Shown here piece by piece: positions 10,401-24,721 of a DNA stretch of 64,000 nt. Numbering within the stretch: the first letter of the stretch is position 1; every line of letters starts with the position of its first letter. The notes under the pieces are model-generated. The model did no database searches. It saw only the letters and a program-made list of their open reading frames with translations, and had not been told where the DNA came from. Position numbers and translations under genes: made by a program. Source of the stretch: Bradyrhizobium sp. MOS002 (GTDB lineage Bacteria; Pseudomonadota; Alphaproteobacteria; Rhizobiales; Xanthobacteraceae); contig NZ_PYFX01000001.1 of NCBI RefSeq assembly GCF_003020115.1, forward strand, positions 883,501-947,500, read 5' to 3'.

Positions 10401-10562
10401 GTTGATGGCACCGTTCGGCGTGGTCTGCGATCCGTTGAAGACCTGCTGGGCACCAACAGGGTTCGTCGACAGGAAGAGGCCGAACAGCACCGCAACGACG
10501 GACGATGCCGCCACGCCAATACGTAGCCGGCTCTGCCCGCTCGATGGCGACCGAAATTCCAC
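7485..10562 (-). CDS. Autotransporter outer-membrane protein
   Basis: A type Va secretion protein of 1025 residues. A signal peptide (about 1-39, ending PVGAQ) is followed by a repetitive Gly/Thr/Asn-rich passenger and a C-terminal beta-barrel translocator (about residues 745-1025) ending in the aromatic residues YAW. The passenger carries the autotransporter-associated strand motif GSGTLILSGTNTYTGTTTVN and an earlier NTYTGDT copy. Between them (about 255-400) is a run of shorter repeats of the form TAGNATITN. The start is a GTG with GAGG eight bases upstream. Two cysteine pairs (CSC and CGC) sit in the passenger, which is unusual for this class. No protease motif was seen, so the role is probably adhesion or surface display. 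Confidence 0.88.
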   Translation of the reverse strand: MEFRSPSSGQSRLRIGVAASSVVAVLFGLFLSTNPVGAQQVFNGSQTTPNGAINGGNGVWDTTTTNWTDVVGSTSNAYDPASAGTIFGYSGASTPATAGTVTVAPGGVQLTSLVGFDVTGDNSVYTIQGGDLRLAPGGTTFFTNDVTGTADPSAVIASRITGSGGINVQRSGILALLGANTYTGDTFICSCAALQLGDATHTASIIGAVVNEGLFNIVNADTSGITTLLNDFSGTTQFFNATSASAMVITNNGQIYFGDPTGGGTDTATAGRATIINDGGLTGFFGRTNAGTANITNQNNGGTAFVDQSSAASATIVNKDFGATLFGTPLGSDTATAGNATITNEADGLTNFAAFTTAGNATIITNDGGKTEFYDNSTGGNARFITTGTGVVDFGISLGPNGDGRITAGSIEGNGTYYIGGGNTLVVGSNNRSTLVDGVIGDYDPCGCGFIGSGSLEKVGSGTLILSGTNTYTGTTTVNRGILRVDGDISQSSLTTVNAGGALFGAGIVGNTVVATGGIYVPGDGGPGSSMQVLGDLSFQSGALYLVQVGSGTTASFANVFGSVTLNGTVGVSLYAGSTILPQYKIMQFSGSATDNFAGVAAPGGLIGTTTVDPSGTVYLNFTLDYGAKYALNVNQKNVATTLQNFFNANGFLQAEFAGLGPNGLTQASGESATGSQQATFNAMNLFINLLTDVFGSGRSGTPGATPYADDTRANAYAATGKGALDKTTRDAFASIYRKVPTATFEQRWDVWAAGYGGSQTTDGNAALGSNNTSSSVYGTAVGLDYRFSPSTIAGFALAGGGTGFNVNGLGWGRSDLFQAGAFIRHTAGPAYITAALAYGWQDVTTNRIVTAAGVDQLRAQFNTNALSGRVEGGYRYATQWIGLTPYAAAQATLFSLPNYSEFAVVGNNTFALNYAAKDVTSTRTELGLRADRSFAAADGLMTLRGRLAWAHDYNPDRTIGAVFQALPGAAFVVNGAAQARDSALTTAAVQMTWMNGWSASATFEGEFSNVTRSYAGKGVVRYAW

Positions 10563-10812: not shown

Positions 10813-11853
10813 CTAGTAATTGGTGGGCGCCGCTTCATTCGGGATGCCGTCGATCGGGCATTCGGCGGTCCCGGGCGTCGCGCGCGTCATCGCCTCGACC
10901 ATGTCCCGGGTGCCCTCGGGATCGGCGATCCAGTTCTTGTAGAAATCATAGGGGCAGGCGGCGACGCCGCGCGGGCTTTCGCCGGAATTGATCATGCCGG
11001 TGTAGCCGCGGTGGACCAGCTTGTAGAGATGGTTCTGCGACTGGCCGTTGCGGCGCGCATCGCGGATCAGATGCTTCGACAACTGGGCATATTGGATGCC
11101 GTAGTCCTCCTCGCCGCACTCGCCGAGGGTGCGGCCGTCGAAGCCGATGATCGCGGAGTGACCGAAATAGGAATAGACCCCGTCGAAGCCGGCGGCGTTG
11201 GCGACCGCGACGTAGACGTTGTTGGCCCACGCCATCGCCTTGGAGATCATGACCTGCTGCTCCTTGGCTGGATACATGTAGCCCTGGCAGCGCACGATCA
11301 GCTCGGCGCCCTTCATGGCGCAGTCGCGCCAGATCTCCGGGAAGTTGCCGTCGTCGCAGATGATCAGGCTGACCTTCATCCCCTTCGGGCCGTCGGAGAC
11401 ATAGGTGCAATTGCCGGGATACCAGCCCTCGATCGGCACCCACGGCATGATCTTGCGATACTTCTGCACGATCTCACCCTTGTCGTTCATCAGGATCAGG
11501 GTGTTGTAGGGCGCCTTGTGCGGATGCTCTTCGTGGCGTTCGCCCGTGAGCGAGAACACGCCCCAAACCTTGGCCTTGCGGCAGGCTTCGGCGAAGATCG
11601 CGGTCTCCTCACCCGGTACCGCGCAAGCGGTCTCATACATCTCCGTGGAATCGTACATGATGCCCTGGGTGGAGTATTCCGGGAAAATCACTAGATCCAT
11701 GCCGGGAAGGCCGGTCTTCATGCCCACCACCATGTCGGCGATCTTGCGGGCGTTATCGAGCACCTCGGCCTTGGTGTGCAGGCGGGGCATCTTGTAGTTG
11801 ACCACCGCGACGCCGACGGTGTCGTTGCTGCTGGAGATGTCACCGTGAAGCAT
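10813..11853 (-). CDS. amiE: Aliphatic amidase
   Basis: A cytoplasmic nitrilase-superfamily enzyme that hydrolyses short aliphatic amides (acetamide, propionamide and similar) to the acid and ammonia. The 346-residue length equals that of Pseudomonas AmiE. The catalytic residues fall at the same numbers: E59 (FPEY), K134 (YRKIMPW), E142 (IEGW) and C166 (IICDDG). It is the last gene of the leftward amide operon, 38 bases after fmdB, with a GAGGAG ribosome site. Together with FmdA it widens the range of amides that can be used as nitrogen source. No AmiC or AmiR genes are beside it; control probably comes from the divergent two-component genes at 18716-23000. Confidence 0.95.
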
Positions 11854-11891: not shown

Positions 11892-12254
11892 TCAGTGACT
11901 GATCATCCAGGGCCGCGCGGTCGGAAAGCCCTTCGCGCCGCTCCTGGTCTTGGTCACCAGCCGCGCCGGCTTCTTCTTGTCCGACGAGTTTTTCCCCGTG
12001 GAGCAGCAGCCGCAGCCTGGGCCATGCGAGGCCTTGTATTGCGCGAGCGTCTGCGGCGCGTGCGTGCTGCGCTCGTTGACGGCGTGAGACTTGCGCGTCT
12101 CCGACGGCATGCAGAAGAAGTTCGGGGCGGTCAGAATGACGCGCGGCGCCATGATTTCACATTGCGGACAGACCTGCGGATCGTCGCATTCGGCCATCGG
12201 GCGCATATCCTTGAACGGACCGCAATCGTCACAGAGATATTCATAGACCGGCAT
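11892..12254 (-). CDS. fmdB: FmdB-family zinc-ribbon protein
   Basis: A small protein of 120 residues with the FmdB/CxxC zinc-ribbon start [12 protein letters not shown] and a second pair, CPQC, about 25 residues later, enough to bind one zinc. FmdB was named as the putative regulatory gene of the formamidase cluster of Methylophilus methylotrophus; its biochemical role is not settled. Here it sits between fmdA and amiE in the same operon. The protein is longer than the usual 70-110 residues because of a basic, lysine-rich tail with a further cysteine cluster (GCGCC). The ATG at 12254 gives the conserved MPVYEY start, so the longer in-frame extension upstream is rejected. Confidence 0.85.
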
Positions 12255-12344
12255 CGCATCATCCCTACGCTGTTGTCTGTGAGAGAACTGCCGCGGCGGA
12301 TGCGGGGCGGCAGCTACGCCGTCCCACATCTCGTCGCGCAGGGA

Positions 12345-13574
12345 TCATTTGTCCGGCGAGATCGGCATCTGGATATCGCCCTTGATGTGCTTGATCGGAC
12401 CCGCCGAGGACGGCATCACGTCGAAGTCGAAGATTTCCGTCGGCAGCCATAATGTGGCGCAGGCGTTGGGCACGTCGACCACGCCGGAGATGTGGCCCTG
12501 AACCGGTGCGGTGCCGAGGATCGAATAAGCCTGGGCGCCGGAGTAGCCGAACTTCTTCAGATATTCGATCGCATTCAGGCAGGCCTGGCGATAGGCGATG
12601 GTGACGTCGAGATAGTGCTGCTTGCCGGCCTCGTCGACCGAGATGCCTTCGAAGATCAGATAGTCCTTGTAGTTCGGGGTGATCGGCGACGGCTTGAAGA
12701 TCGGATTCTTGACACCGTACTTCGCCATGCCGTCCTTGATCACCTCGACCTTCAGATGCAGCCAGCCGGCCATCTCGATCGCGCCGCAGAAGGTGATCTC
12801 GCCGTCGCCTTGGCTGAAGTGCAGATCGCCCATCGAGAGACCGGCGCCGGGCACGTAGACCGGGAAGTAGATCTTCGAGCCGCGCGAGAGGTCCTTGATG
12901 TCGCAATTGCCGCCATGCTCACGCGGCGGTACGGTGCGCGCGCCTTCGGCGCCGATCTTGTCCTTGACGTCACCCTTGGCGCGGCCGCCATGAGCGGTCG
13001 GCGCGAATGGCGGGTTCGCCAGTCCGGGCACGCGGGTCGGGTTGGTCGCGATCAGCTCGGCCTCGCGCTTGTTCCAGGTGTCCAGCATCTTCGGATCGGG
13101 CAGACAGCCGATCAGGCCGGGATGGATCAGGCCGGCGAAGTTGACGCCCGGAATATGCCGCGACGAGGTGTAGAGGCCCTTGATGTCCCAGATCGATTTC
13201 TGCGCAAGCGGAAAATGATCCGTGAGGAAGCCGCCGCCGTTCTGCTTGGAGAAGAAGCCGTTGAAGCCCCACATGCTCTCCTTCATCGGACCGACGTCGA
13301 GCAGGTCGACGACGAGGAGGTCGCCGGGCTCTGCGCCCTTGACGCCGATCGGTCCGGACAGGAAGTGCACGATCGACAGATCGATGTCGCGCACATCGTC
13401 GGCAGAATCGTTGTTCTTGATGAAGCCGCCGGTCCAGTCATAGGTCTCGATGATGAAATCGTCGCCGGGATTGACCCAGGCTACGATCGGAATGTCGGGG
13501 TGCCAGCGGTTATGCACCATGTCATTTTCATAGGCCGACTTGGTGAGATCGACCTTGATCAGTGTCTCTGGCAT
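12345..13574 (-). CDS. fmdA: Formamidase (FmdA/AmdA acetamidase family)
   Basis: A 409-residue cytoplasmic amidohydrolase that converts formamide to formate and ammonia, possibly with some action on acetamide. It is colinear with the Methylophilus-type formamidase by remembered motifs: an N-terminal HNRWHPDIP, a long acidic beta-rich core, and the conserved GDLHFSQGDGE and MAGWLHLKVEV stretches. The family length is about 400-410. The gene has a GGGGAG ribosome site and lies between urtE and fmdB in the leftward operon. Urea is not the substrate of this enzyme, so the adjoining transporter may well carry amides rather than, or as well as, urea. Confidence 0.93.
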   Translation of the reverse strand: MPETLIKVDLTKSAYENDMVHNRWHPDIPIVAWVNPGDDFIIETYDWTGGFIKNNDSADDVRDIDLSIVHFLSGPIGVKGAEPGDLLVVDLLDVGPMKESMWGFNGFFSKQNGGGFLTDHFPLAQKSIWDIKGLYTSSRHIPGVNFAGLIHPGLIGCLPDPKMLDTWNKREAELIATNPTRVPGLANPPFAPTAHGGRAKGDVKDKIGAEGARTVPPREHGGNCDIKDLSRGSKIYFPVYVPGAGLSMGDLHFSQGDGEITFCGAIEMAGWLHLKVEVIKDGMAKYGVKNPIFKPSPITPNYKDYLIFEGISVDEAGKQHYLDVTIAYRQACLNAIEYLKKFGYSGAQAYSILGTAPVQGHISGVVDVPNACATLWLPTEIFDFDVMPSSAGPIKHIKGDIQMPISPDK

Positions 13575-13601: not shown

Positions 13602-14291
13602 TTAGACGGACAGATATTTCGAGACCTGCGCGGCATCGACGGCGTCGCGCGGATCGTCGCGGACGATCTCGCCGTTCTCGATCACCAGCACGCGGTCGGC
13701 GATGTCGAGCGCGAAGCTCAGGACCTGCTCGGACACGACGATCGAAAGCCCCTTCTCGTCGCGGATGCGCTTGAGCGTGCGCGCCATCTCCTTGATGATC
13801 GACGGCTGGATGCCTTCGGTCGGCTCGTCCAGCAGCAGCACTTTCGGCTTGGTCGCCAGCGCGCGAGCGATCGCGAGTTGTTGCTGCTGGCCGCCGGAGA
13901 GATTGCCGCCACGGCGGTCCTTCATCTCCAGCAGCACCGGAAACAGTTCGTAGATGTCACCGGGCACCTCGGTTCCGCCGGAGACGACGAGGCCGGTCTC
14001 GATGTTCTCCTTCACCGTCATGGTGGAGAAGATCATGCGGCCCTGCGGCACATAGGCAAGGCCCTTGGCGACGCGCTCGTAGCTCGGCAGGCTGCCGAGC
14101 TCGGCGCCGTCCATGGTCACCGAGCCGCTCTTCGTCGGCAGGATGCCCATCAGCGATTTCATCAACGTGGTCTTGCCCATGCCGTTGCGGCCCATGATCG
14201 CAACGATCTCGTTGGGCGCGACCTTGACGTTGAGACCGTGCAGCACCTCGCTCTGGCCGTAGGCGACGTGAAGATCAGAAATAGCCAGCAT
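13602..14291 (-). CDS. urtE: Urea/short-chain amide ABC transporter ATPase UrtE
   Basis: One of two ATPases of a branched-chain-type importer. The 229 residues contain Walker A (GRNGMGKTT, about 34-42), signature LSGGQQQQLAI and Walker B LLLDEPTEG, all intact. The protein is LivF-like and pairs with UrtD. It is encoded 27 bases upstream of fmdA and 11 bases after urtD, inside the leftward operon. By context it energises uptake of urea or amides. The related FmdDEF transport proteins of Methylophilus were reported to carry short-chain amides and urea, so the exact substrate is uncertain. Confidence 0.9.
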   Translation of the reverse strand: MLAISDLHVAYGQSEVLHGLNVKVAPNEIVAIMGRNGMGKTTLMKSLMGILPTKSGSVTMDGAELGSLPSYERVAKGLAYVPQGRMIFSTMTVKENIETGLVVSGGTEVPGDIYELFPVLLEMKDRRGGNLSGGQQQQLAIARALATKPKVLLLDEPTEGIQPSIIKEMARTLKRIRDEKGLSIVVSEQVLSFALDIADRVLVIENGEIVRDDPRDAVDAAQVSKYLSV

Positions 14292-14302: not shown

Positions 14303-15058
14303 TCAGTGACCCAGATAGACTTCGACCACCTTGGGGTCGTTCTTCACCTTCTCCATGGTCCCTTCCGAGAGGATCTGGCCCTGGTGAAGCACGGTGACCT
14401 TGTGCGCGATGTCCTCGACGAACTTCATGTCGTGCTCGATCACGAGCACCGAGCGGTTCTTGATGATGCGGTTGAGCAGCTCGGCGGTCTTGGCGCGCTC
14501 TGAGACGCTCATGCCGGCGACGGGCTCATCTAACATCAGAAGGTCCGGGTCCTGGATCAGCAGCATGCCGATCTCGAGCCATTGCTTCTGGCCATGGCTC
14601 AGCTCGGATGCATAGGTGTTGAGCTTGTCCCTGAGGAAGATCATCTCGGCGACCTCCTCGACCCGGTCCTTGACCTGCTGGTCGCGCTGGAAGGTCAGCG
14701 AGCCGAACACGGTGCGACCGCGCGGAAAGGAGATCTCGAGATTCTCGAACACGGTGAGATCCTCGAACACCGACGGCGTCTGGAACTTGCGTCCCACCCC
14801 GGCCTTGACGATCTCGTTCTCCTTCAGCTTCGTCAGCTCCGTGCCGCGAAACTGGATCGAGCCCTCGGTCGCTTTGGTCTTGCCGCAGATCAGGTCGAGT
14901 ACGGTGGTCTTGCCAGCGCCGTTCGGCCCGATGATGACGCGGATTTCGTTCTCCTCGATATAGAAGGAAAGGTCATTGACGGCTTTGAACCCGTCGAACG
15001 AGACGGTTAGTCCGGAGACCGCGAGCAGGAATTCCTTGGGCTGACTTCCGACAAGCAT
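14303..15058 (-). CDS. urtD: Urea/short-chain amide ABC transporter ATPase UrtD
   Basis: The second ATPase of the importer, 251 residues, LivG-like. Walker A is GPNGAGKTT, the signature is LSHGQKQW (a Q-H variant common in UrtD) and Walker B is LLMLDEPVAG. The ATG at 15058 is preceded by GAGGAG. The gene starts 10 bases after urtC ends and ends 11 bases before urtE, so translation is probably coupled along the operon. Confidence 0.92.
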   Translation of the reverse strand: MLVGSQPKEFLLAVSGLTVSFDGFKAVNDLSFYIEENEIRVIIGPNGAGKTTVLDLICGKTKATEGSIQFRGTELTKLKENEIVKAGVGRKFQTPSVFEDLTVFENLEISFPRGRTVFGSLTFQRDQQVKDRVEEVAEMIFLRDKLNTYASELSHGQKQWLEIGMLLIQDPDLLMLDEPVAGMSVSERAKTAELLNRIIKNRSVLVIEHDMKFVEDIAHKVTVLHQGQILSEGTMEKVKNDPKVVEVYLGH

Positions 15059-15068
15059 TATCGTCTCC

Positions 15069-16208
15069 TCACTCTGCCGGCGCGCCGTCGGCGACCGAAT
15101 TGTCTTTCCAGTCCGACTTCTTGCGCGAGGCGAACAGACGGTCGATCCGCGGCTGCACGTAGTCGGCCCAGAGCCCGGACAGACCGTTCGGGAAGGCGAG
15201 CACCACCGCGATGAACAGGGCGCCGAGGCCGAACAGCCAGAGTTGCGGGAAGGATTCCGACAGGCTGGTCTTGGCGAAGTTCACCAGAATGGCCCCCCAG
15301 ATCGCGCCGAAGATCGACATCCGTCCGCCGACGGCGGTGTAGATCACCATCTCGATCGAGGGCACGATGCCGACAAAGGACGGCGACATGAAACCGACAT
15401 TGAGCGCGAACATCGCCCCGCCGATCGCGGCAAAGACCGCGGCCATGCAGAACGCGAAGATCTTGAAGTTGGCGACGCTGTAGCCGGAGAAGCGGACGCG
15501 ATCCTCCTGTTCGCGCATCGCCACCAGGATGCGGCCGAGCTTGGTCAGGCGGATGAACTGCGCGATGCCGATGCAGGCGAACAGCAGCACGACCTCGACG
15601 AAGTACAGGATGACCTTGGCGTGGTCGGGCCGGATGTCCCAACCTTTGAGGGTGCGTAGGTCGGTCATGCCGTTGATGCCGCCGGTATAGCCCTGCTGAC
15701 CGACGATCAGGATGGTCAGGATGGCCGCGACGGCCTGGGTGATGATCGCGAAATAGGTGCCGCCGACGCGGCGCTTGAACATTGCGGTGCCGATGATCAG
15801 CGCGAAGATGCCGGGAACCAGGATGATGGCGAGGATGGTGAAGGTGAGACTGTGAAACGGCTGCCAGAACAGCGGCAGTGACGTGATCTGATTCCAGTCC
15901 ATAAAATCCGGAATGCCGGGCGTCGACTGGATTTTCGTGTTCTCGACGCTGGAGGCTTCCAGCTTGAGGAACATCGCCATGCAATAGCCGCCGAGTCCGA
16001 AGAACACGCCCTGCCCGAGACTCAGAATGCCGCCATAACCCCAGCACAGCACGAGGCCGAGTGCGACAAAGGCGTAGGTCAGATATTTCGCGACCAGATT
16101 GAGGCGGAATACATCGAGCGACAGCGGCAGGATCACGAACAGCACGGCGGCCAGAACAATGAAGCCGATGAGCTCGGATCGATTGAAGAAGCGTGAGTTG
16201 ATGACCAT
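15069..16208 (-). CDS. urtC: Urea/short-chain amide ABC transporter permease UrtC
   Basis: An inner-membrane permease of 379 residues, LivM-like, with about nine to ten hydrophobic helices. The typical UrtC features are seen: an early GYGGILSLGQGVFFGLGGY loop, a long periplasmic insert (about 95-135) and GGINGMTDL after it. It would form the channel with UrtB. The C-terminus is cytoplasmic and polar. The gene is 17 bases downstream of urtB. Confidence 0.92.
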   Translation of the reverse strand: MVINSRFFNRSELIGFIVLAAVLFVILPLSLDVFRLNLVAKYLTYAFVALGLVLCWGYGGILSLGQGVFFGLGGYCMAMFLKLEASSVENTKIQSTPGIPDFMDWNQITSLPLFWQPFHSLTFTILAIILVPGIFALIIGTAMFKRRVGGTYFAIITQAVAAILTILIVGQQGYTGGINGMTDLRTLKGWDIRPDHAKVILYFVEVVLLFACIGIAQFIRLTKLGRILVAMREQEDRVRFSGYSVANFKIFAFCMAAVFAAIGGAMFALNVGFMSPSFVGIVPSIEMVIYTAVGGRMSIFGAIWGAILVNFAKTSLSESFPQLWLFGLGALFIAVVLAFPNGLSGLWADYVQPRIDRLFASRKKSDWKDNSVADGAPAE

Positions 16209-16225: not shown

Positions 16226-17152
16226 TTATTTGCGGACCTTGAGGGCGAATAGCCCTTGCGGCCGCAGCATCAGGATTCCGACGACGGCGAGCAGTGTCAG
16301 CACCTTGGCCATCGAGCCCGACAAGAAGAACTCGAGGGTGGATTGGGTCTGCGAGATCGAGAAGGCCGATGCGATGGTGCCGAGCAGGCTAGCCGCGCCG
16401 CCGAACACGACCACTAGGAACGTATCGACGATATAGAGCTGTCCGGAGGTCGGCCCGGTCGAGCCGATCATGGTGAAGGCGCTCCCGGCGACACCGGCAA
16501 TGCCGCAGCCGAGGCCGAAGGTGTAACGATCCACCTTTTCGGTGTTGATGCCGACGGCACCGGCCATGATGCGGTTCTGCACGACGGCGCGCACCTGGCG
16601 GCCCCAGCGCGATTTGTACATCACGTAGGCGACGGCGACGGTGATCAGCACGGTGAGGCACATCACGAAGACACCGTTGATCGGCACCTCGATACTGTCC
16701 GAGACGTGCAGCGAGCCCAGCATCCATTGCGGCAGCTCGACGCCGACCTCGCGCGCGCCGAAGACGGAGCGATAGGCCTGTTGCAGCATCAGGCTGAGGC
16801 CCCAGGTCGCAAGCAGCGTGTCGAGCGGTCGCTTGTAGAGATGCCGTATCAGCACCCATTCCACCAACATCCCCAGCGCACCGGACGCGAAAAAGGCCAG
16901 GATCATCGCGAGGAAGAAGTAGCCGCTGAACAAGCTCGGCAAATAGGACTGGAAGAAATTCGAGGTCATCCAGGTGACGTAGGCCCCGAGGATCATGAAC
17001 TCGCCATGGGCCATGTTGATGACGCCCATCTGGCCGAAGATGATCGCAAGACCCAGCGCCATCAGGACGTAGACGGAGAACAGGATCAGTCCTGCAAAGC
17101 CCTGCATGACGAAGATGGAGCCAAGGTCACCAAGCGAGTAGTCGCCGAACAT
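16226..17152 (-). CDS. urtB: Urea/short-chain amide ABC transporter permease UrtB
   Basis: An inner-membrane permease of 308 residues, LivH-like, with about eight helices and the conserved GQMGVINMAHGEFMILGAY near residue 40. It lacks the long N-terminal periplasmic domain that many cyanobacterial UrtB proteins have. The ATG at 17152 has a strong GGAGG site six bases upstream; the in-frame extension further upstream would read through the stem-loops between urtA and urtB and is not likely to be translated. The 130-base gap to urtA holds two perfect hairpins. Confidence 0.92.
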   Translation of the reverse strand: MFGDYSLGDLGSIFVMQGFAGLILFSVYVLMALGLAIIFGQMGVINMAHGEFMILGAYVTWMTSNFFQSYLPSLFSGYFFLAMILAFFASGALGMLVEWVLIRHLYKRPLDTLLATWGLSLMLQQAYRSVFGAREVGVELPQWMLGSLHVSDSIEVPINGVFVMCLTVLITVAVAYVMYKSRWGRQVRAVVQNRIMAGAVGINTEKVDRYTFGLGCGIAGVAGSAFTMIGSTGPTSGQLYIVDTFLVVVFGGAASLLGTIASAFSISQTQSTLEFFLSGSMAKVLTLLAVVGILMLRPQGLFALKVRK

Positions 17153-17176
17153 CGATGTCCTCCGTCGGGAAAGGGT

Positions 17177-17236
17177 CCCGCGTCGCGAGCAGGTTCGCGA
17201 CGCGGGGGTCTTAGGCGTGGACTTGCGATCCACGCC
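17177..17236 (-). promoter_or_regulatory. Two tandem stem-loops between urtA and urtB
   Basis: In transcript order, hairpin 1 (17236-17214) has an 8-bp perfect stem GGCGTGGA/TCCACGCC with a 7-base loop. Hairpin 2 (17206-17177) has an 11-bp perfect stem CCCGCGTCGCG/CGCGACGCGGG with an 8-base loop. Hairpin 2 is followed by ACCCTTTCCC and the urtB ribosome site. No long U run follows, so partial termination or protection of the urtA message from 3' decay is more likely than full stop. This would give more binding protein than permease. Confidence 0.75.
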
Positions 17237-17282: not shown

Positions 17283-18542
17283 TTACTGGTAGCCCTTGGG
17301 GAACGGATCCGGCTCGACCAGGTCGGCGGTCTCGTAGATCAATTCGAACTGGCCATCCAGCTTCGCGCGTCCCACCCGGGTCTTCGACCAGAGGTGATGA
17401 TTTTCGTGAATGCGCACATAGCCTTCCGGAGCGCCCTTGAACTCGATGCCCGGCGACGCCGCCGCGATCTTGTCGATGTCGAAGGAGCCCGCCTTCTCCA
17501 CCGTCAACTTCCACAGCCACGGGCCGAGATAGGCAGCCTGGGTGACGTCTCCGATCACGGTCTTCTCGCCCCACATCTTCTTGAACGCCGGGACGAAGGT
17601 CTTGTTGTTCGGATTGTCCAGCGACTGGAAGTACTTCATGCAGGCATAGGCGCCCGCGATGTTCTCGCCGCCGATGCCGTCAATCTCGTCTTCGGTCACC
17701 GAGATCGTCAGCAGCGCCTGCTTCGAGAGGTCGATGCCGGCGGCCTTGAGCTGCTTGTAGAACGCAACGTTCGAACCGCCGACGACGTCGGTGAAGATCA
17801 CGTCGGGCTTGGTCAGCTTGATCTTGTTGATGACCGAGTTGAACTGGGTATTGCCGAGCGGATAATATTCTTCGCCGACGACCTTGCCCTTCAGCACGTT
17901 CTCGACATGCTTGCGCGCGATCTTGTTCGAGGTGCGCGGCCAGATGTAGTCGGAGCCGATGAAGAAGAACGACTTCGCGCCCTTCTCCTTGGCGATCCAG
18001 TTCAGGCCGGCGAGGATCTGCTGAGTGGCTTCCTGGCCGGTGTAGATGACGTTCTTGGACTGCTCGAGACCTTCATAGAAGGTCGGGTAATAGAGCATGC
18101 CGTTGTACTGCTCCATGACGGGCAGCACGGCCTTGCGGGACGCCGAGGTCCAGCAGCCCATGATCGCCGCGACCTTGTCGTTGACCAGCAGCTTCTTGGC
18201 CTTTTCGGCAAAGGTCGGCCAGTCGCTGGCGCCGTCTTCCTGGATGAACTTGATCTTGCGCCCGAGCACGCCGCCCATGGCATTGATCTGCTCGATGGCG
18301 AGCTTTTCGGCTTCGATCGAGCCGGTCTCGGAGATGGCCATGGTGCCGGTCGCCGAATGCAGGATGCCGACCGTCACCTCGGTGTCGGTGACCGCGAGGC
18401 CCGTGCTATTGACCGCCGAGGTCGCCGGGGCCTGTGCAAAAGATGCTCGCGGCAGCATCGTGATGGCCGGCAAGGCCGCCATTCCCATCAATAATTTGCG
18501 CCGGAGCGGCGATAACAGGCCCTTGTTCGCTTCGTCTGACAT
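17283..18542 (-). CDS. urtA: Urea/short-chain amide ABC transporter substrate-binding protein (UrtA/FmdD)
   Basis: A periplasmic binding protein of 419 residues of the Leu/Ile/Val-binding fold. An N-terminal signal with a twin-arginine-like LRRKLLMGMAALP (about 12-26) ends near SFAQA. The mature part begins VTVGILHSATGTMAISE, which is the UrtA/AmiC-type ligand site, and shows SASRKAVLPV and FYEGLEQSKN. AmiC, the amide sensor of Pseudomonas, belongs to the same fold, so urea and amides are both plausible ligands. The ATG at 18542 is chosen because it gives the signal peptide directly. This is the first gene of the leftward operon, facing the sensor kinase gene across 173 bases. Confidence 0.93.
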   Translation of the reverse strand: MSDEANKGLLSPLRRKLLMGMAALPAITMLPRASFAQAPATSAVNSTGLAVTDTEVTVGILHSATGTMAISETGSIEAEKLAIEQINAMGGVLGRKIKFIQEDGASDWPTFAEKAKKLLVNDKVAAIMGCWTSASRKAVLPVMEQYNGMLYYPTFYEGLEQSKNVIYTGQEATQQILAGLNWIAKEKGAKSFFFIGSDYIWPRTSNKIARKHVENVLKGKVVGEEYYPLGNTQFNSVINKIKLTKPDVIFTDVVGGSNVAFYKQLKAAGIDLSKQALLTISVTEDEIDGIGGENIAGAYACMKYFQSLDNPNNKTFVPAFKKMWGEKTVIGDVTQAAYLGPWLWKLTVEKAGSFDIDKIAAASPGIEFKGAPEGYVRIHENHHLWSKTRVGRAKLDGQFELIYETADLVEPDPFPKGYQ

Positions 18543-18613
18543 GAGCACCCCACTGTTGTTCGAGGACACGCGATTGGTGCCGTGAGGATGGCTCGAATTT
18601 GTGCACTGCAAGC

Positions 18614-18631
18614 ATACGCAAGATCGCGTAT
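18614..18631. promoter_or_regulatory. Perfect inverted repeat in the urtA-kinase divergent region
   Basis: ATACGC-AAGATC-GCGTAT, a 6-bp perfect inverted repeat with a 6-base spacer, is flanked on both sides by TGCA-containing sequence. It sits 72 bases upstream of the urtA start and 85 bases upstream of the kinase start. Size and place suit a dimeric LuxR/NarL-type regulator such as the one at 22077-23000. The link is an inference. Confidence 0.5.
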
Positions 18632-18660
18632 ACTGCACCGCAAAATGACGACGTAGGCTT

Positions 18661-18677
18661 TTGGTACGGGTTTTGCG
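18661..18677 (+). promoter_or_regulatory. Candidate sigma-54 (-24/-12) promoter for the sensor kinase operon
   Basis: TTGGTACGGGTTTTGCG has the GG and GC pairs of a sigma-54 promoter exactly 10 bases apart and matches the TTGGCACG-N4-TTGC consensus except for T in place of C after GG. A start about 12 bases beyond GC would fall near 18688, leaving a 28-base leader with GGAGTGGGG before the GTG at 18716. Nitrogen-limitation control would fit the locus. Confidence 0.5.
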
Positions 18678-18715
18678 AGGGGTCCGGTAAGTTCGGGAGT
18701 GGGAGTGGGGCTTAA

Positions 18716-21700
18716 GTGGCAGGGCGGCAGCGAATAGATCGCGTCAGGCGCCAGTACAATCAATGGGTCGCCAACCAGACGCTGGAAGACTACGCGCTGC
18801 GCTTCACCGCCAAAAGCGCGCGCCGGTGGTCCGCCGCCCGCGTCGCCAACACTGCACTGGGCGCAATCTCCTTTCTCGCGCTGGAGGCGATCGGCGGCAC
18901 AATCACCCTGAACTACGGCGTTACCAATGCCACCGCAGCGATCCTCGTCGTCTCCACCATCATCTTCTGCTGCGGCGTTCCGATTGCCTATTATGCAGCC
19001 AAATGCGGCATCGACATTGACCTGCTCACCCGCGGCGCCGGCTTCGGCTATATCGGCTCGACCGTCACGTCGCTGATCTACGCCTCCTTCACCTTCATCT
19101 TCTTCGCCATCGAGGCGGTGATCCTGGCGACGGCGCTCGAGATGTGCTTCGGCATTCCGCGTCCGATCGGCTACCTCATCAGCGCGGTCGCGATCATCCC
19201 GCTTGTCACCTACGGCATCACGCTGATCAGCCGCTTCCAGCTCTGGACGCAGCCGATCTGGATCATTCTGCACATCCTGCCCTTCGCCGCGATCGCCTGG
19301 GCCAACCCTTACTCGTTCACGGAGTGGCGCAAATTCGCCGGCGAGCACGGCGACCCCAACGGACATTTCGATCTGCTGCTGTTCGGTGTCGCATCCTCGG
19401 TGGTGTTTTCGCTGGTGGCCCAGATCGGCGAGCAGGTCGACTTCCTCAGGTTCCTGCCGCGCGACCGCCGCACCTCGCGAACGTCGTGGTGGGCAGCCCT
19501 GCTGATCGCGGGCCCCGGCTGGATCATCTTCGGCGCGCTGAAACTGCTGCTGGGCTCGTTTCTCGCTTTCTTCGCGCTGAGCCACGGCCTCTCCAGCGAG
19601 CTGGCGGCCGAGCCTGCGCACATGTATCTCGAAGCGTTTCGCTACGTGCTGTCGCAGCCGGACATGGCCTTGGCACTCACCGGCGCGTTCGTGATCCTGT
19701 CGCAGCTCAAGATCAACGTCACCAATGCCTATGCAGGCTCGATCGCCTGGTCGAACTTCTTCTCGCGTCTGACGCATAGCCATCCCGGCCGGGTCGTCTG
19801 GCTGGTGTTCAACGTGATGGTGGCACTGCTGTTGATGGAGATCGGCGTCTACAAGGCGCTGGAGCAGACGCTCGCGCTCTATTCCAATGTCGCGATCGCC
19901 TGGGTCGGCGCGCTGGTGTCCGATCTCGTGGTCAACAAGCCGCTCGGCCTGCGGCCGCCGCAGATGGAATTCAAGCGCGCCCATCTCTACGACATCAACC
20001 CGGTCGGCGTCGGTGCGATGACGATCGCGACCATCGTCTCGATCGCCGCATTCTACGGCCTGTTCGGCTCGACCATGAAAGCGCTCGCGGCCTTTGTCGC
20101 GCTGACGGTCGCCTTCGTCACCGCGCCTGTCATCGCGTGGCTCACCGACGGAAAATACTACATCGCGCGCAAGCCCAAGAGGAGCTGGGCCAATATCGAA
20201 TCGATCCAGTGCTGCATCTGCGAGCACCATTTCGAGCCGGAGGACATGACCTCCTGCCCTGCCTATGCCGGCCCGATCTGCTCGCTTTGCTGCTCGCTCG
20301 ATGCGCGCTGCCACGATTTGTGCAAGCCGCATGCGCGGGCGCAGGTGCAGTTCGCCGACGCACTCGCCAGGATCTTGCCGCAGGCGATCTATCAGCGGAT
20401 CAACTCGCAGTTCGGCCACTACATTGGCGTGTTCGTGGTCTCCGCGGGCCTCGTCGCGCTGGTGCTGGGGCTGATCTACCTCCAGACCTCGGTCAGCGTA
20501 CCTGGCGAGAACATGCTCGTCTCCAACGTGCTCTGGAAGGTGTTCTTCTCGCTCAGCATCATCATCGGGGTCGTGGCCTGGCTGTTCGTGCTGGCGCAGC
20601 AGAGCCGACGGGCCGCCGAGGCCGAGACCAGGCGCCAGACCACGCTGCTGATCCAGGAGATCGACGCGCACAAGCGCACCGATGCCGAGCTCCAGCGCGC
20701 CAAGGAGATCGCCGAATCCGCCAACCTCGCCAAGAGCCGCTACGTGGTGGGCCTGAGCCACGAGCTGCGCTCGCCGCTGAATGCGATCAGCGGCTATGCC
20801 CAACTCCTGGAGCAGGACACGACGCTCAACACCAAGCCGCGCGACCAGGTCCGCGTCGTCCGCCGCAGCGCCGACCACCTCTCCGGCCTGATCGACGGCA
20901 TTCTGGACATCTCCAAGATCGAGGCGGGGCGGCTGTACCTGTCGCGCGACGAGGTGCGCTTGTCCGAATTCCTCGACCAGCTCGTCGGCATGTTCCGCCT
21001 TCAAGCCGCCGCCAAGGGCATCGACTTCGTGTTCAGGCGGCCGGCGCATTTGCCGGTCGTGGTCTATGCCGACGAGAAGCGGCTGCGCCAGGTGCTGATC
21101 AATCTGCTGTCCAACGCGATCAAATTCACCCAAGCCGGCAGCGTCCATTTCGTGGTGCACTATCGCAGCCCGGTTGCAGAGTTCGAGGTGATCGACACTG
21201 GCCCCGGCATCCAGGGCGACGATCTCGAACGCATCTTCGCACCCTTCGAACGCGGCGCGCTCGGTGTCTCGCAGCCGCACACCGGCACCGGGCTGGGCCT
21301 GACCATCAGCCGGCTGCTCGCCGGCGTCATGGGCGGCGACATCAAGGTCTTGAGCACGGTCGGCCGCGGCAGCACGTTCAAGGTCAAGATGCTGCTATCG
21401 GAAGTCACCAATCCGCAGCGCATTGCGCCGGTGGAGGCCCCGATCTCCGGCTATCACGGCGCGCGCAAGACCATTCTCATCACCGACGACGATCCCGTGC
21501 ATCGCGACCTCCTGCGCGAGGTGCTGACACCGCTCGGCTTCATCCTGCTCAGTGCGCCAGATGGACCTGGTTGCCTCGCGCTGGCCCAGCACTGCCGGCC
21601 CGATCTGTTCCTGCTCGATATTTCCATGCCGGGCATGGACGGCTGGACGGTCGCGGAGACGCTGCGCGCGAACGGCCATCATCAGGCACGCATCCTGATG

Positions 21701-22087
21701 GTGTCGGCCAGCGCGCTCGAAGCCCACGGCACACCGCTGGCGCAGCCCTTCCACGACGGCTATCTGATGAAGCCGATCGACATTCCCAGGCTTTTGGAAG
21801 GCATTCGCCAGCTTCTCAAGCTCGAATGGCAATACGGCTCGGACGAGATCGCCGTGCCGCTATGGCGGCCTGAGAGCGGCTCGCGGCCGCCTGTACGACA
21901 CATCGAGGCGCTGATCGGGCTCGGTCAGATCGGCTACGTCAAGGCTATCCAGTTGAAGCTGGACGAGATCGGCAGTGAGCATCCTGAGCATGCCGACTTC
22001 GTCGCGGAAATGCGGTCGCTGATCGACCGCTTCGATCTCGACCAGTACATGGCCACATTGAAGACGTTGCATGCGTATGAGCACTGA
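18716..22087 (+). CDS. Hybrid sensor histidine kinase with N-terminal NCS1 (CodB-like) permease domain
   Basis: A 1123-residue membrane sensor. Residues about 30-490 form a 12-helix NCS1 nucleobase/hydantoin-permease-like module (TLEDYALRFT at the start, RGAGFGYIGS near 105). A cysteine/histidine cluster follows (about 499-540, starting CCICEHHFEPEDMTSC), then two more helices (about 565-585 and 606-628) and a helical linker. Next come HisKA with H682 in LSHELRSPLNA, a HATPase with NLLSNAIKFT, DTGPGI and GTGLGLT, and a receiver domain with phosphoacceptor D968 in LLDISMPGMDG. The last 80 residues are helical and show no HPt HxxKG motif. Start: GTG with GGAGTGGGG upstream. It overlaps the next gene, a LuxR-type regulator, and faces the amide operon, so it probably senses an amide, urea or related ligand. 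Whether the permease part still transports is unknown. Confidence 0.85.
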   Translation: MAGRQRIDRVRRQYNQWVANQTLEDYALRFTAKSARRWSAARVANTALGAISFLALEAIGGTITLNYGVTNATAAILVVSTIIFCCGVPIAYYAAKCGIDIDLLTRGAGFGYIGSTVTSLIYASFTFIFFAIEAVILATALEMCFGIPRPIGYLISAVAIIPLVTYGITLISRFQLWTQPIWIILHILPFAAIAWANPYSFTEWRKFAGEHGDPNGHFDLLLFGVASSVVFSLVAQIGEQVDFLRFLPRDRRTSRTSWWAALLIAGPGWIIFGALKLLLGSFLAFFALSHGLSSELAAEPAHMYLEAFRYVLSQPDMALALTGAFVILSQLKINVTNAYAGSIAWSNFFSRLTHSHPGRVVWLVFNVMVALLLMEIGVYKALEQTLALYSNVAIAWVGALVSDLVVNKPLGLRPPQMEFKRAHLYDINPVGVGAMTIATIVSIAAFYGLFGSTMKALAAFVALTVAFVTAPVIAWLTDGKYYIARKPKRSWANIESIQCCICEHHFEPEDMTSCPAYAGPICSLCCSLDARCHDLCKPHARAQVQFADALARILPQAIYQRINSQFGHYIGVFVVSAGLVALVLGLIYLQTSVSVPGENMLVSNVLWKVFFSLSIIIGVVAWLFVLAQQSRRAAEAETRRQTTLLIQEIDAHKRTDAELQRAKEIAESANLAKSRYVVGLSHELRSPLNAISGYAQLLEQDTTLNTKPRDQVRVVRRSADHLSGLIDGILDISKIEAGRLYLSRDEVRLSEFLDQLVGMFRLQAAAKGIDFVFRRPAHLPVVVYADEKRLRQVLINLLSNAIKFTQAGSVHFVVHYRSPVAEFEVIDTGPGIQGDDLERIFAPFERGALGVSQPHTGTGLGLTISRLLAGVMGGDIKVLSTVGRGSTFKVKMLLSEVTNPQRIAPVEAPISGYHGARKTILITDDDPVHRDLLREVLTPLGFILLSAPDGPGCLALAQHCRPDLFLLDISMPGMDGWTVAETLRANGHHQARILMVSASALEAHGTPLAQPFHDGYLMKPIDIPRLLEGIRQLLKLEWQYGSDEIAVPLWRPESGSRPPVRHIEALIGLGQIGYVKAIQLKLDEIGSEHPEHADFVAEMRSLIDRFDLDQYMATLKTLHAYEH

Positions 22088-23000
22088 GTCGAAAAAGCGC
22101 GACGTCGCGCTCGTTGTCGACGACTCCCCGGAGACGCTGCGGCTGCTCACCGACGCGCTCGACAGCGCCGGGATGACGGTGATGGTGGCGCTCGACGGCG
22201 CGGCCGCGATGCGCATTGTCGACCAGATCACGCCTGACATCGTGCTGCTCGACGCGGTGATGCCGGGCATGGACGGGTTCGAGACCTGCCGCCGCCTCAA
22301 GCGCGATGCGGGCCTTGCCAATGTCCCGGTGATATTCATGACGGGGCTCGCCGAGACCGAGCACATCGTGCGCGGGCTGGAGGCCGGCGGCGTCGACTAC
22401 GTGACGAAGCCGATCGTGATCGAGGAGATGCTGGCGCGCATCCGCGTTCATCTCGGCAATGCGCGGCTGACGCAAAGCGCACGTGCCGCGCTCGACGTGT
22501 CCGGCCGATTCCTGTTCGCGGTCAACCGCCAGGGCAAATTGTTGTGGGCGACCCCGCAGGCGCAGAAGCTGCTGGCGGACCACCACGGCGCGCAGGCCGA
22601 CGACGACTTCGTCCTGCCAGTATCATTGCTGCAATGGCTGGAGCAGGCAAAGGGCAAGGGCAGCTCGAAGTCCCAGGCGGCTTCCCTGCCCGACAATCCT
22701 CAGCTCCGGCTGTACTACATGGGCGAGACCGCGCCGAACGAGTTCCTGCTGCGGCTCTCCAAGGAGTCCGGCACCGCGCCGCCACCCGAATTCACCAGCG
22801 AGCTTGGCCTCACCACCCGCGAAGGCGAGGTGCTGGCCTGGCTCAGCAAGGGCAAAACCAACCGCGACATCGCGCAGATTTTGGGCTTAAGCCCCCGCAC
22901 GGTCGACAAGCATCTCGAGCAGATCTACGCCAAGCTCGGCGTCGAGAACCGGACGGCTGCGGCGGCGATTGCGACAAATGCGACGAGAAGGAATTCGTAG
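22077..23000 (+). CDS. LuxR/FixJ-type response regulator with internal linker domain
   Basis: A DNA-binding response regulator of 307 residues. The receiver domain has the acidic pair DD near residue 15 and phosphoacceptor D59 in LLDAVMPGMDG, plus TKP for the conserved Lys. A PAS-like middle segment (about 140-235, LFAVNRQGKLLWATPQA) is followed by a LuxR-type helix-turn-helix (about 240-300, LTTREGEVLAWLSKGKTNRD). The start is either ATG 22071 or ATG 22077; both overlap the kinase stop, so the two genes are translationally coupled and surely partners. The likely targets are the divergent urt-fmd-amiE promoter and its own operon. The middle segment between receiver and HTH is longer than in NarL/FixJ proteins. 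Confidence 0.88.
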   Translation: MSTESKKRDVALVVDDSPETLRLLTDALDSAGMTVMVALDGAAAMRIVDQITPDIVLLDAVMPGMDGFETCRRLKRDAGLANVPVIFMTGLAETEHIVRGLEAGGVDYVTKPIVIEEMLARIRVHLGNARLTQSARAALDVSGRFLFAVNRQGKLLWATPQAQKLLADHHGAQADDDFVLPVSLLQWLEQAKGKGSSKSQAASLPDNPQLRLYYMGETAPNEFLLRLSKESGTAPPPEFTSELGLTTREGEVLAWLSKGKTNRDIAQILGLSPRTVDKHLEQIYAKLGVENRTAAAAIATNATRRNS

Positions 23001-23221: not shown

Positions 23222-24721
23222 TCACCCATACACAAACTCCCCGCCATCCAGATCCGTCTTCGGGATCTCGTCCTTTTCGGTCCAGTAATCCTGGCTGTGC
23301 TGCCATTCCGGCTTGTCGCCGCGCTTGGGTAGCAGATCCATGTTGCGCATCATGTAGCCGGGGTTGAAGTTTTCCGGATCGATCCAGGGCAGGATCGGCA
23401 TGTTGTGGTCTTCGGCACGCAACTGGACCTCGACCTTCTTCTTGCCTTTGGCCTTCAAGTGACCGAGCAGGCGGCAGACGAAGTCTGCGACGAGGTCGAC
23501 GCGCAGCGTCCAGCTGGCGCGGAAATAGCCGAACACCCAGACCATGTTCGGCACGCCCGTGAACATCATGCCGCGATAGGTGACGGTGTCGCCGAACGCG
23601 AGCGGCTTGCCGTCGACCTCGAAGGCGATGTCGCCGAGCGCCGCGAGATTGAAGCCGGTTGCGGTGACGATGACGTCGGCTTCGAGCAGCTTGCCGGATT
23701 TGAGCTGGATGCCGTTCTCGACGAAACATTCGATCTCGTCGGTGACGACGGACGCCTTGCCGCTGGCGATCCCCTTGAACAGATCGGCATCGGGCACGAA
23801 GGCGATGCGCTGCCGCCACGGCCGGTAGCTCGGTGTGAAATGTGTATCGACATCGTACTCCGGACCGAGCACCGCGCTGATCTGGCCGATCAGCTCCTTC
23901 TTCACCTGTTCGGGCTTTGACAAGCAAAGCTTGGTGAACGCGTCCTGCTCGAACAGGATCTTGCGGCGGACGATCTCGTGGATCCAGGCCTCGTCGACCT
24001 GCAGCCGGCGCAACTCCTCCGCGATCTCGATGGCGTTGCGGCCGAGGCGGAAATAAGTCGGCGAACGCTGCAGCATCGTGACATGCGCGCATTTGTCGGC
24101 GATGTTCGGCACCAGCGTCGCCGCCGTCGCGCCGGAGCCGATCACGACGACTTTCTTGTTCGAAAGGTCGATATCATCAGGCCAGGTCTGCGGATGAACG
24201 ATGCGGCCCTTGAAGCGATCCGTACCCTTCCATTCCGGCGTATAGCCTTCCGAATGGCGGTAATAGCCCTGGCACATCCAGAGAAAATTCGCCGTGAAGG
24301 TTTTCGCTTCGCCGGTGTCGGTCGTCACCGCCTCGATGGTCCAGAGGTTTTGCTCGCTCGACCAGCTCGCCGAATTGATCTTGTGCTTGTAGCGGATGTG
24401 TCTCGCAAGATCGTTGTCGTCGATCACCTCGTTCATGTAGGCGAGGATTTCCTCGGCGGTCGCGATCGGCGGCCCGACCCAGGGCTTGAAGCTATAACCG
24501 AAGGTGTGGAGATCGCTGTCGGAGCGGATGCCGGGATAGCGATGCGTGGTCCAGGTGCCGCCGAACGTCGCCTGCGTTTCCAGGATGACAAAGCTCGCAT
24601 CCGGAAGCTGCTTGGTCATGTGATAGGCGCTGCCGATGCCCGAGATACCGGCGCCGACGATCAGCACGTCGAAATGTTCAGAAGCCTGTTTGGCCGCGTG
24701 ACTGCGAACAGCGACATTCAT
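23222..24721 (-). CDS. Baeyer-Villiger-type flavin monooxygenase
   Basis: A 499-residue FAD/NADPH monooxygenase expected to insert one oxygen atom into a ketone, giving an ester or lactone, in the cytoplasm. The FAD site is VLIVGAGISGIGSAY (about 19-33). The type I Baeyer-Villiger fingerprint FxGxxxHxxxWP is exact at residues 170-181 (FKGRIVHPQTWP), which sets it apart from plain flavin-containing monooxygenases that have Y/F in place of WP. The NADPH Rossmann motif VVVIGSGATA follows at 191. The ketone cannot be told, and no lactonase or dehydrogenase gene lies beside it. The gene is convergent with the response regulator. Confidence 0.88.
   Translation of the reverse strand: MNVAVRSHAAKQASEHFDVLIVGAGISGIGSAYHMTKQLPDASFVILETQATFGGTWTTHRYPGIRSDSDLHTFGYSFKPWVGPPIATAEEILAYMNEVIDDNDLARHIRYKHKINSASWSSEQNLWTIEAVTTDTGEAKTFTANFLWMCQGYYRHSEGYTPEWKGTDRFKGRIVHPQTWPDDIDLSNKKVVVIGSGATAATLVPNIADKCAHVTMLQRSPTYFRLGRNAIEIAEELRRLQVDEAWIHEIVRRKILFEQDAFTKLCLSKPEQVKKELIGQISAVLGPEYDVDTHFTPSYRPWRQRIAFVPDADLFKGIASGKASVVTDEIECFVENGIQLKSGKLLEADVIVTATGFNLAALGDIAFEVDGKPLAFGDTVTYRGMMFTGVPNMVWVFGYFRASWTLRVDLVADFVCRLLGHLKAKGKKKVEVQLRAEDHNMPILPWIDPENFNPGYMMRNMDLLPKRGDKPEWQHSQDYWTEKDEIPKTDLDGGEFVYG

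Follow-up and report, generated by a model that had tools for sequence, protein, structure and literature searches.

Introduction

Several histidine kinases carry a transporter module as their sensor; the kinds described in the literature examined are SLC5, Amt and S-component modules. Few such transceptors had been reported, and they were called oddities, before the S-component case of 2024 (PMC11109136). Here we analyze a locus in a 64,000-nucleotide stretch of the Bradyrhizobium sp. MOS002 genome (contig NZ_PYFX01000001.1, positions 883,501 to 947,500; hereafter the window, to which positions refer), which encodes a hybrid histidine kinase with a predicted NCS1-fold sensor module, a LuxR-type response regulator and a divergent amide-use operon. 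We consider it likely that the kinase is a membrane receptor for urea and short-chain amides, which activates the neighbouring uptake and hydrolysis operon.

CbrA, CrbS and RpuS likewise place an N-terminal LeuT-fold transporter module on a histidine kinase for nutrient control (PMC13022988), and CrbR, like the regulator described here, belongs to the LuxR family and needs an inverted repeat (PMC5715377). These kinases differ from the present one in having an SLC5 and not an NCS1 module, in a four-helix STAC linker where the present sensor has an eight-cysteine segment and a helix pair, and in controlling histidine, acetate or pyruvate use. The Cys segment sits where STAC sits in CbrA. STAC was not named in the Pfam output of the sensor (whether Pfam has a STAC model was unchecked), and the region at the STAC position models as a Cys hairpin and two long helices with no PDB match at E 0.001; these observations lean against STAC membership.

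Ks-Amt5 resembles the sensor in using a transporter module, fused to a histidine kinase, to sense a nitrogen compound, but it has the Amt fold, is a trimer, responds to ammonium, and consists of Amt and kinase only, in 679 residues (PMC5764959). The S-component-fold (5TMR) kinases also use the membrane fold of a transporter component as sensor, but this is the S-component fold of the energy-coupling factor (ECF) type and not LeuT/NCS1 (PMC11109136). No fusion of NCS1 to a kinase was found in the open-access literature, a search that leaves subscription papers mostly outside, and an earlier interpretation of this DNA from its letters alone (the sequence-only reading) knew of no worked example either.

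Regarding the operon, the fmd cluster of Methylophilus methylotrophus similarly has genes for formamidase, for FmdB and for a binding-protein transporter that handles short amides and urea, and it is reported to be inducible by formamide and urea (PMC10781810). AmiC and AmiR also control an amide-use operon with amiE, but do so through ligand-binding AmiC and the antiterminator AmiR; amiC and amiR are reported absent from the urtABCDE-fmdAB-amiE cluster studied in the same paper (PMC13209695). A histidine kinase and LuxR regulator are drawn beside urtABCDE in PMC13296017, the available part of which names no transporter module.

Results

Domain structure of the sensor kinase

The kinase and regulator comprise the following features.

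18716-22087, plus strand: hybrid sensor kinase open reading frame (ORF), 1123 aa, GTG start
18716..20185, plus strand: predicted NCS1/LeuT-fold sensor module, residues 1-490
20210..20323, plus strand: eight-cysteine segment, residues 499-536, 8 invariant Cys
20408..20590, plus strand: helix pair 13-14, residues ~565-625, leading into the kinase coiled coil
20732..20929, plus strand: HisKA (PF00512), phospho-acceptor His682
21071..21394, plus strand: HATPase_c (PF02518)
21473..21805, plus strand: receiver domain (PF00072), phospho-acceptor Asp968
22071-23000, plus strand: response regulator gene, 309 aa, receiver and LuxR/NarL-type helix-turn-helix (HTH) (PF00072, PF00196)

Pfam places HisKA at residues 673-738, HATPase_c at 786-893 and Response_reg at 920-1030 of the 1123-aa protein, and Response_reg at 14-125 and GerE (the LuxR HTH) at 247-301 of the regulator. 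The protein joins a transporter fold to a complete histidine kinase, as in CbrA, and is a hybrid kinase with a phospho-Asp receiver and an adjacent REC-HTH regulator, whose ORF shares 17 bases with that of the kinase. The sequence-only reading had described the HisKA/HATPase and receiver domains, the overlap with a LuxR-type gene, and two further helices ahead of the kinase; Pfam agrees on the domains, and the helices were modelled at residues 565-594 and 599-659, the second continuing towards HisKA.

Pfam searches of the full protein and of residues 1-500 found no NCS1 match, nor did PDB searches by sequence, run with one sequence or a 27-row profile; the assignment of the sensor module to NCS1 (family 2.A.39) therefore rests on profile-profile comparison and predicted fold. 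The computed fold is a LeuT fold closest to CodB and Mhp1, in which the NCS1 core is retained and 397 sensor residues align to CodB. Negatives in the hhalign comparison were UrtC permeases and reversed NCS1 sequences, with SLC5 not among the profiles compared; these were used because the Bradyrhizobium genome itself holds no SSF protein (E 1e-10) to serve as an SLC5 positive control. That genome has no match to PF02133 (E 1e-5) or to the SSF model, and so, by these models, lacks a free-standing NCS1 or SLC5 transporter. PF02133 does match a free-standing relative at 27-30% identity (36.4 bits against a cut-off of 23.5).

At L069:8949-13373, a free-standing NCS1 relative of the sensor module is followed by nitrilase-family and UrtA-like genes, and is a candidate transporter for amides or nitriles, close to where the sensor originated. 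A partial scan of the neighbours of the free-standing relatives at L069, L225, L227 and L232 showed no common pathway.

Conservation was measured in alignment A1, comprising the window sensor and 50 of 56 sampled fusions (L063, truncated, and the near-identical L071, L073, L074, L076 and L077 were dropped). The N-terminal module has a mean pairwise identity of 0.60 with 19.6% invariant positions, compared with 0.59 and 7.3% for the linker and HisKA, 0.49 and 10.3% for HATPase, and 0.41 and 0% for the receiver; it is as conserved as any large part of the sensor and has more invariant positions. With its recurrence across genomes (52/398, below), this marks the fusion as more than a chance event. 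The catalytic residues are retained: His682 in 51/51 sensors, Asn796, Asn800, Asp827 and the glycines checked in the ATP site in 51/51, and Asp968 in 49/51, the remaining two having gaps.

The most conserved stretch overall is the 46-residue Cys segment (identity 0.63, 32.6% invariant), whereas helices 13-14 are variable in sequence (2.2% invariant). All 51 sensors have Cys at positions 499, 502, 514, 522, 525, 526, 532 and 536, and in a wider set of 132 sensors, cut at 545 residues, each is kept in 123 to 130, the rest being mostly gaps. The cysteines of the Cys/His cluster described in the sequence-only reading are thus confirmed; no histidine of that cluster stands in an invariant column. 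The segment is modelled as a hairpin and helix (model m71679e2983cb), with weak RING-like and other PDB matches, none at E<=0.001, for which reason it carries no family name here. It is probably a cytoplasmic zinc-binding linker.

When the Cys segment alone was used as a profile against the 398 sampled genomes, matches were found in 54. Those outside the fusion proteins were to a 618-aa kinase that lacks the NCS1 module (G288) and to 41 residues of a 50-aa frame (G070). A 618-aa kinase at L184:6857-8713 has the helix pair and kinase of the family without the NCS1 module, with the Cys segment as remnants, and adjoins a gene with an alcohol dehydrogenase-like product (by eye). One urease-side clade (L065, L066, L068) carries ~24 to 60 extra residues, varied, between the NCS1 module and the Cys segment.

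Residues aligned to the NCS1 pocket

The pocket was compared by alignment to CodB and Mhp1, with residue roles taken from PMC9379551 and PMC4195764. Gly49, Arg245, Asn334 and Tyr339 of the sensors are retained as in CodB, and the motifs FG..GS and D-F-x-R-F are common to sensors and NCS1 transporters. Seven polar or charged positions, each aligned with the NCS1 pocket or its surroundings, are invariant across amide and urea sensors alike. The Na2-site hydroxyls (CodB Thr278/Thr279, in transmembrane helix (TM) 8) are lost, being replaced by Lys332 in 132/132 and Ile333 in 131/132 sensors; the lysine parallels CbrA Lys196, also in the Na2 site (PMC13022988). The stacking residue CodB Trp108 corresponds to Phe129 in 24/27 sensors and Leu in 3, and the second stacking aromatic (CodB Phe204, Mhp1 Trp220) to a small residue in 27/27, with the TM6 alignment uncertain; the two substrate-sandwiching aromatics expected of NCS1 are not both present. 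These changes suggest, without proving, a lost Na+ coupling and a smaller ligand.

The module therefore resembles CodB and Mhp1 in its fold, the four retained residues and the two motifs, and differs from them in the lack of a PF02133 match, the Na2 Thr/Ser to Lys332/Ile333 changes, the changed aromatics and the fused kinase. Because three strict tests of NCS1 membership failed, the fold is kept and no positive sign of the SLC5-STAC type was seen, we file the sensor as a new version of the transporter-shaped sensor kinases.

Gene neighbourhoods of the fusion

The genes divergent from the kinase are as follows.

17283..18638, minus strand: urtA, substrate-binding protein (TIGR03407, 537.6 bits, cut-off 492.75)
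16226..17233, minus strand: urtB, permease (TIGR03409)
15069..16208, minus strand: urtC, permease (TIGR03408)
14303..15058, minus strand: urtD, ATPase (TIGR03411)
13602..14291, minus strand: urtE, ATPase (TIGR03410)
12345..13574, minus strand: fmdA, formamidase (NF045496, 758 bits)
11892..12329, minus strand: fmdB, zinc-ribbon protein (TIGR02605, NF053663)
10813..11853, minus strand: amiE, aliphatic amidase (NF009802, 719.9 bits, cut-off 427)

UrtA-E, FmdA, FmdB and the aliphatic amidase all score above NCBIfam cut-offs, bearing out the divergent operon of the sequence-only reading. From inspection of the letters, the urtA start is likely the ATG at 18542.

To describe the occurrence of the fusion, we use two sets of loci. 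It was found in 52/398 Pseudomonadota genomes (own genome included), and in one more genome, G236, a 94-aa frame encodes just a fragment of it. The closest named relatives, at 93-94% identity, place the window in a Bradyrhizobium genome. In a GTDB species collection, a pattern scan gave at least 578 stretches encoding a relative of the module, the best 80 of which, nearest to the query and from Alpha-, Beta- and Gammaproteobacteria, are the named loci. Together with 56 loci from the genome sample (window excluded), 136 loci were read, with up to ~10 kb fetched on each side.

Amide or urea genes are present in every one of the 119 loci for which 3 kb or more could be read on each side. The sequence-only reading proposed a transporter-shaped receptor for an amide, urea or ureide that switches on the amide operon, and held that a kinase with no link to amide genes would speak against it; the adjacency check found the link in 119/119 and supports that proposal. 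An amide kind, with urt and fmdA, and a urea kind, with a second urt type, urease or both, can be distinguished among the loci. The first urt type accompanies fmdA in 82/136 loci, urease genes occur with the second urt type in 20, the second urt type only in 13, the first only in 8, urease genes only in 5, fmdA only in 2, and fmdA with both urt types in 1. The 5/136 loci without an amide or urea gene (L063, L072, L123, L132, L165) all have the kinase near a contig edge and lie outside the 119. fmdA was found together with urease in none of the 136 loci; L174 has an AmiE relative alongside urease genes and was labelled amide from the AmiE match. UrtA (E<=1e-60) is present in 51/52 kinase-bearing genomes compared with 121/346 others (Fisher test).

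A relative of the regulator follows the kinase in 130/132 loci. The two exceptions, L062 and L064, have no LuxR-type partner and share a separate REC-HisKA-HATPase protein and an OmpR-type regulator. Their sensors (L062:8302-10956 and L064:8366-11005; 885 and 880 aa) are deep-branching and lack the receiver. The L064 cluster holds the REC-HisKA-HATPase protein, the OmpR-type regulator, fmdA, an AmiS/UreI channel and an fmdB match at its end, and L062 the same families.

In a tree of 135 of the 137 sensors (L132 and L177 were too short), the amide/urea label changes five times by parsimony, compared with a shuffled mean of 32.7. One of the five changes is doubtful, and the count raised by about one, because the L174 label is questionable. 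For the tree and for positions 129 and 336 discussed below, the amide label includes loci with the first Urt type alone, and the urea label those with the second alone.

A palindromic operator between kinase and urtA

18614-18631, no strand: predicted response-regulator site, operator ATACGCAAGATCGCGTAT (ATACGY-N6-RCGTAT)

A word-pair search of 79 non-redundant kinase/urtA intergenic regions gave top ranks to pieces of a single palindrome, the most frequent word pairs occurring in 44/79 regions and in 0 after shuffling. NarL-type sites have a 7-2-7 layout of heptamers. In the window, 71 bp separate the operator from the likely start of urtA and 84 bp from that of the kinase, and it is the single exact match in the 7.58-Mb genome. 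At >=12/16 matches, the palindrome is present in 78/110 regions compared with 0.85 expected, in amide and urea types both. The 400 bp ahead of kinase, urtA or fmdA contain it in 107/131 loci at <=1 mismatch (shuffled 0) and in 120/131 at <=2 mismatches (shuffled 5). Such placement holds for 125/128 sites at <=1 mismatch, 15 of them before fmdA, and separate fmdA or second-type urtA units are also preceded by operator sites. Controls were 20 letter shuffles per region for the 110-region scan, 50 per region for the independent test below, and one two-base-block shuffle per locus for the word-pair, separate-unit and 131-locus scans.

The operator was then sought in independent sequence, at <=2 mismatches, for which chance is ~4% per 800 bp by shuffling. 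It was found upstream of the urt operons of urease-type loci in 6/7 cases (4/7 at <=1 mismatch): in 2/3 within the kinase's own cluster, just past the stretch fetched first (L205-L207), and in 4/4 at ~40 to 245 kb from it (L208-L211). It was absent from all 20 urtA upstream regions of kinase-less genomes (0/20), from all 13 regions before a second urtA copy where the genome has an amide-type kinase (0/13), and, in its common type, from L062 and L064. The operator thus accompanies the kinase and LuxR-type regulator as a pair, along with the urt copy belonging to them.

Discussion

The likely reading given above, of a receptor for urea and short-chain amides, can be set out as a chain of proposed steps. 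The ligand would enter what was once the substrate pocket, lying between bundle and hash helices, and the resulting movement may pass via the Cys segment and helices 13-14 to HisKA. Phosphate would transfer to the NarL/LuxR-type regulator from the overlapping gene, which would bind ATACGY-N6-RCGTAT between kinase and urtA and, as an activator rather than a repressor, switch on urtABCDE-fmdA-fmdB-amiE; in other lineages it may activate fmdA separately, or a urea-type urt operon. The two operon kinds have urea and short amides in common, and these are the presumed ligands.

Several observations weigh against this reading or narrow it. PF02133 has no match in the whole protein at E 0.01, nor in residues 1-500 even at E 10, and hhalign against CodB and Mhp1 alone gave just 88.3% over 184 columns; of the NCS1 module named in the sequence-only reading, the fold stands by profile-profile comparison and predicted structure, and a Pfam match does not. 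Eleven of the 131 loci have no operator at <=2 mismatches. In the own genome, sites at <=1 mismatch number 14 compared with 20 for the backwards control, which is no excess, and only the exact match is specific there. L207, the sole independent test region without an operator, was chosen by position, urtA not being located in it. Nor do the loci represent independent samples: the named 80 are the nearest relatives of the query, many of them Bradyrhizobium. Finally, position 129 is Phe in 95/95 amide-type sensors and Leu in 24/37 urea-type ones, and position 336 is Thr in 95/95 amide-type sensors and Met, Ala or Thr in urea-type ones, and because of these differences the ligand may differ between the two. 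On the tree, Phe129Leu arose twice and Thr336 changed twice, in urea-type sensors only. A single pocket change separating amide from urea sensors was considered and fails, since 13/37 urea-type sensors retain Phe129.

The retention of the NCS1 core over the 397 residues aligned to CodB would also suit a true transceptor, in which the module transports urea or amides and transport movements set the kinase activity. CbrA is reported to import histidine with the proton gradient as driving force, and its SLC5 domain places Lys196 in the Na2 site (PMC13022988); the invariant Lys332, aligned to CodB Na2-site Thr278, can be compared with this lysine. However, most sensors adjoin an ABC (ATP-binding cassette) uptake system, urt; the Na+-coordinating hydroxyls of Mhp1 and CodB are replaced by Lys and Ile; and Ks-Amt5 illustrates that a transporter domain on a kinase can lose transport (PMC5764959). 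We regard this explanation as unlikely, and signalling rather than transport as the probable role of the module. More improbable still is that the sensor detects another pathway-linked compound (a ureide, hydantoin, nucleobase or ammonia), as suggested by the NCS1 substrates hydantoins, allantoin, cytosine and uracil known from the literature, and by the closest free-standing relative (L069), which lies beside nitrilase-family and UrtA-like genes. The replacement of the second ring-stacking aromatic by small residues in 27/27 sensors fits a flat ring poorly. The enzymes encoded nearby are formamidase, amidase or urease, and the annotated neighbours, which are only part of all neighbours, include none acting on purines, pyrimidines or hydantoins.

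Transporter-coupled kinases exist, BceAB-S being named in PMC11109136, and as the sensor usually adjoins urt, the module might read the activity of the Urt ABC transporter by contact and not a free ligand. Sensors beside the second Urt type are, however, 56-66% identical to the window N-module while their UrtA is just 36-42% identical to the window UrtA, and urt and a urease-side kinase are ~40 to 245 kb apart in four genomes, which makes such contact very improbable. The least probable explanation is that the NCS1-like module is a degenerate, ligand-free membrane anchor, with the signal (redox or metal) entering elsewhere, such as at the Cys segment; the eight invariant Cys beside the kinase, in the most conserved segment, would fit this, but the module and the HisKA region are conserved to about the same degree, and the module exceeds the linker and HisKA, HATPase and helices 13-14 in invariant positions.

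Beyond the urea and short-amide receptor itself, we tentatively propose a broader history, held with less than even confidence. The NCS1 fold may have turned, apparently once, into a pure receptor for these compounds, with Lys332 in the sodium site, a pocket shrunk to urea-sized ligands, and a Cys-rich linker to a kinase commanding a fixed 7-2-7 operator; the sensor would have moved between amide and urea operons about five times, the operator following its targets.

If the receptor reading is true, the NCS1 fold joins the kinase-fused transporter modules, in a family of at least 578 stretches. The sensor is also a candidate for the missing amide/urea inducer sensor in Bradyrhizobium, Rhizobium, Pseudomonas, Alcanivorax, Methylobacterium and others. 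It would offer a ready test system of one protein, a regulator and an operator, with a natural amide/urea series differing at pocket positions 129 and 336.

Other features of the loci

A mixed case is found at L050 (G360), where a urease operon adjoins first-type-like urtCDE (64-70% identity), with the sensor in tandem and carrying Leu129. In the window, a flavin monooxygenase-like gene follows the regulator (23222-24721, minus strand), and is at that place in some Bradyrhizobium loci only. A 930-aa open frame antisense to the kinase (18488-21280, minus strand) resembles a shadow frame of GC-rich coding DNA, and a 1025-aa protein encoded at 7485-10562 on the minus strand appears autotransporter-like by eye.

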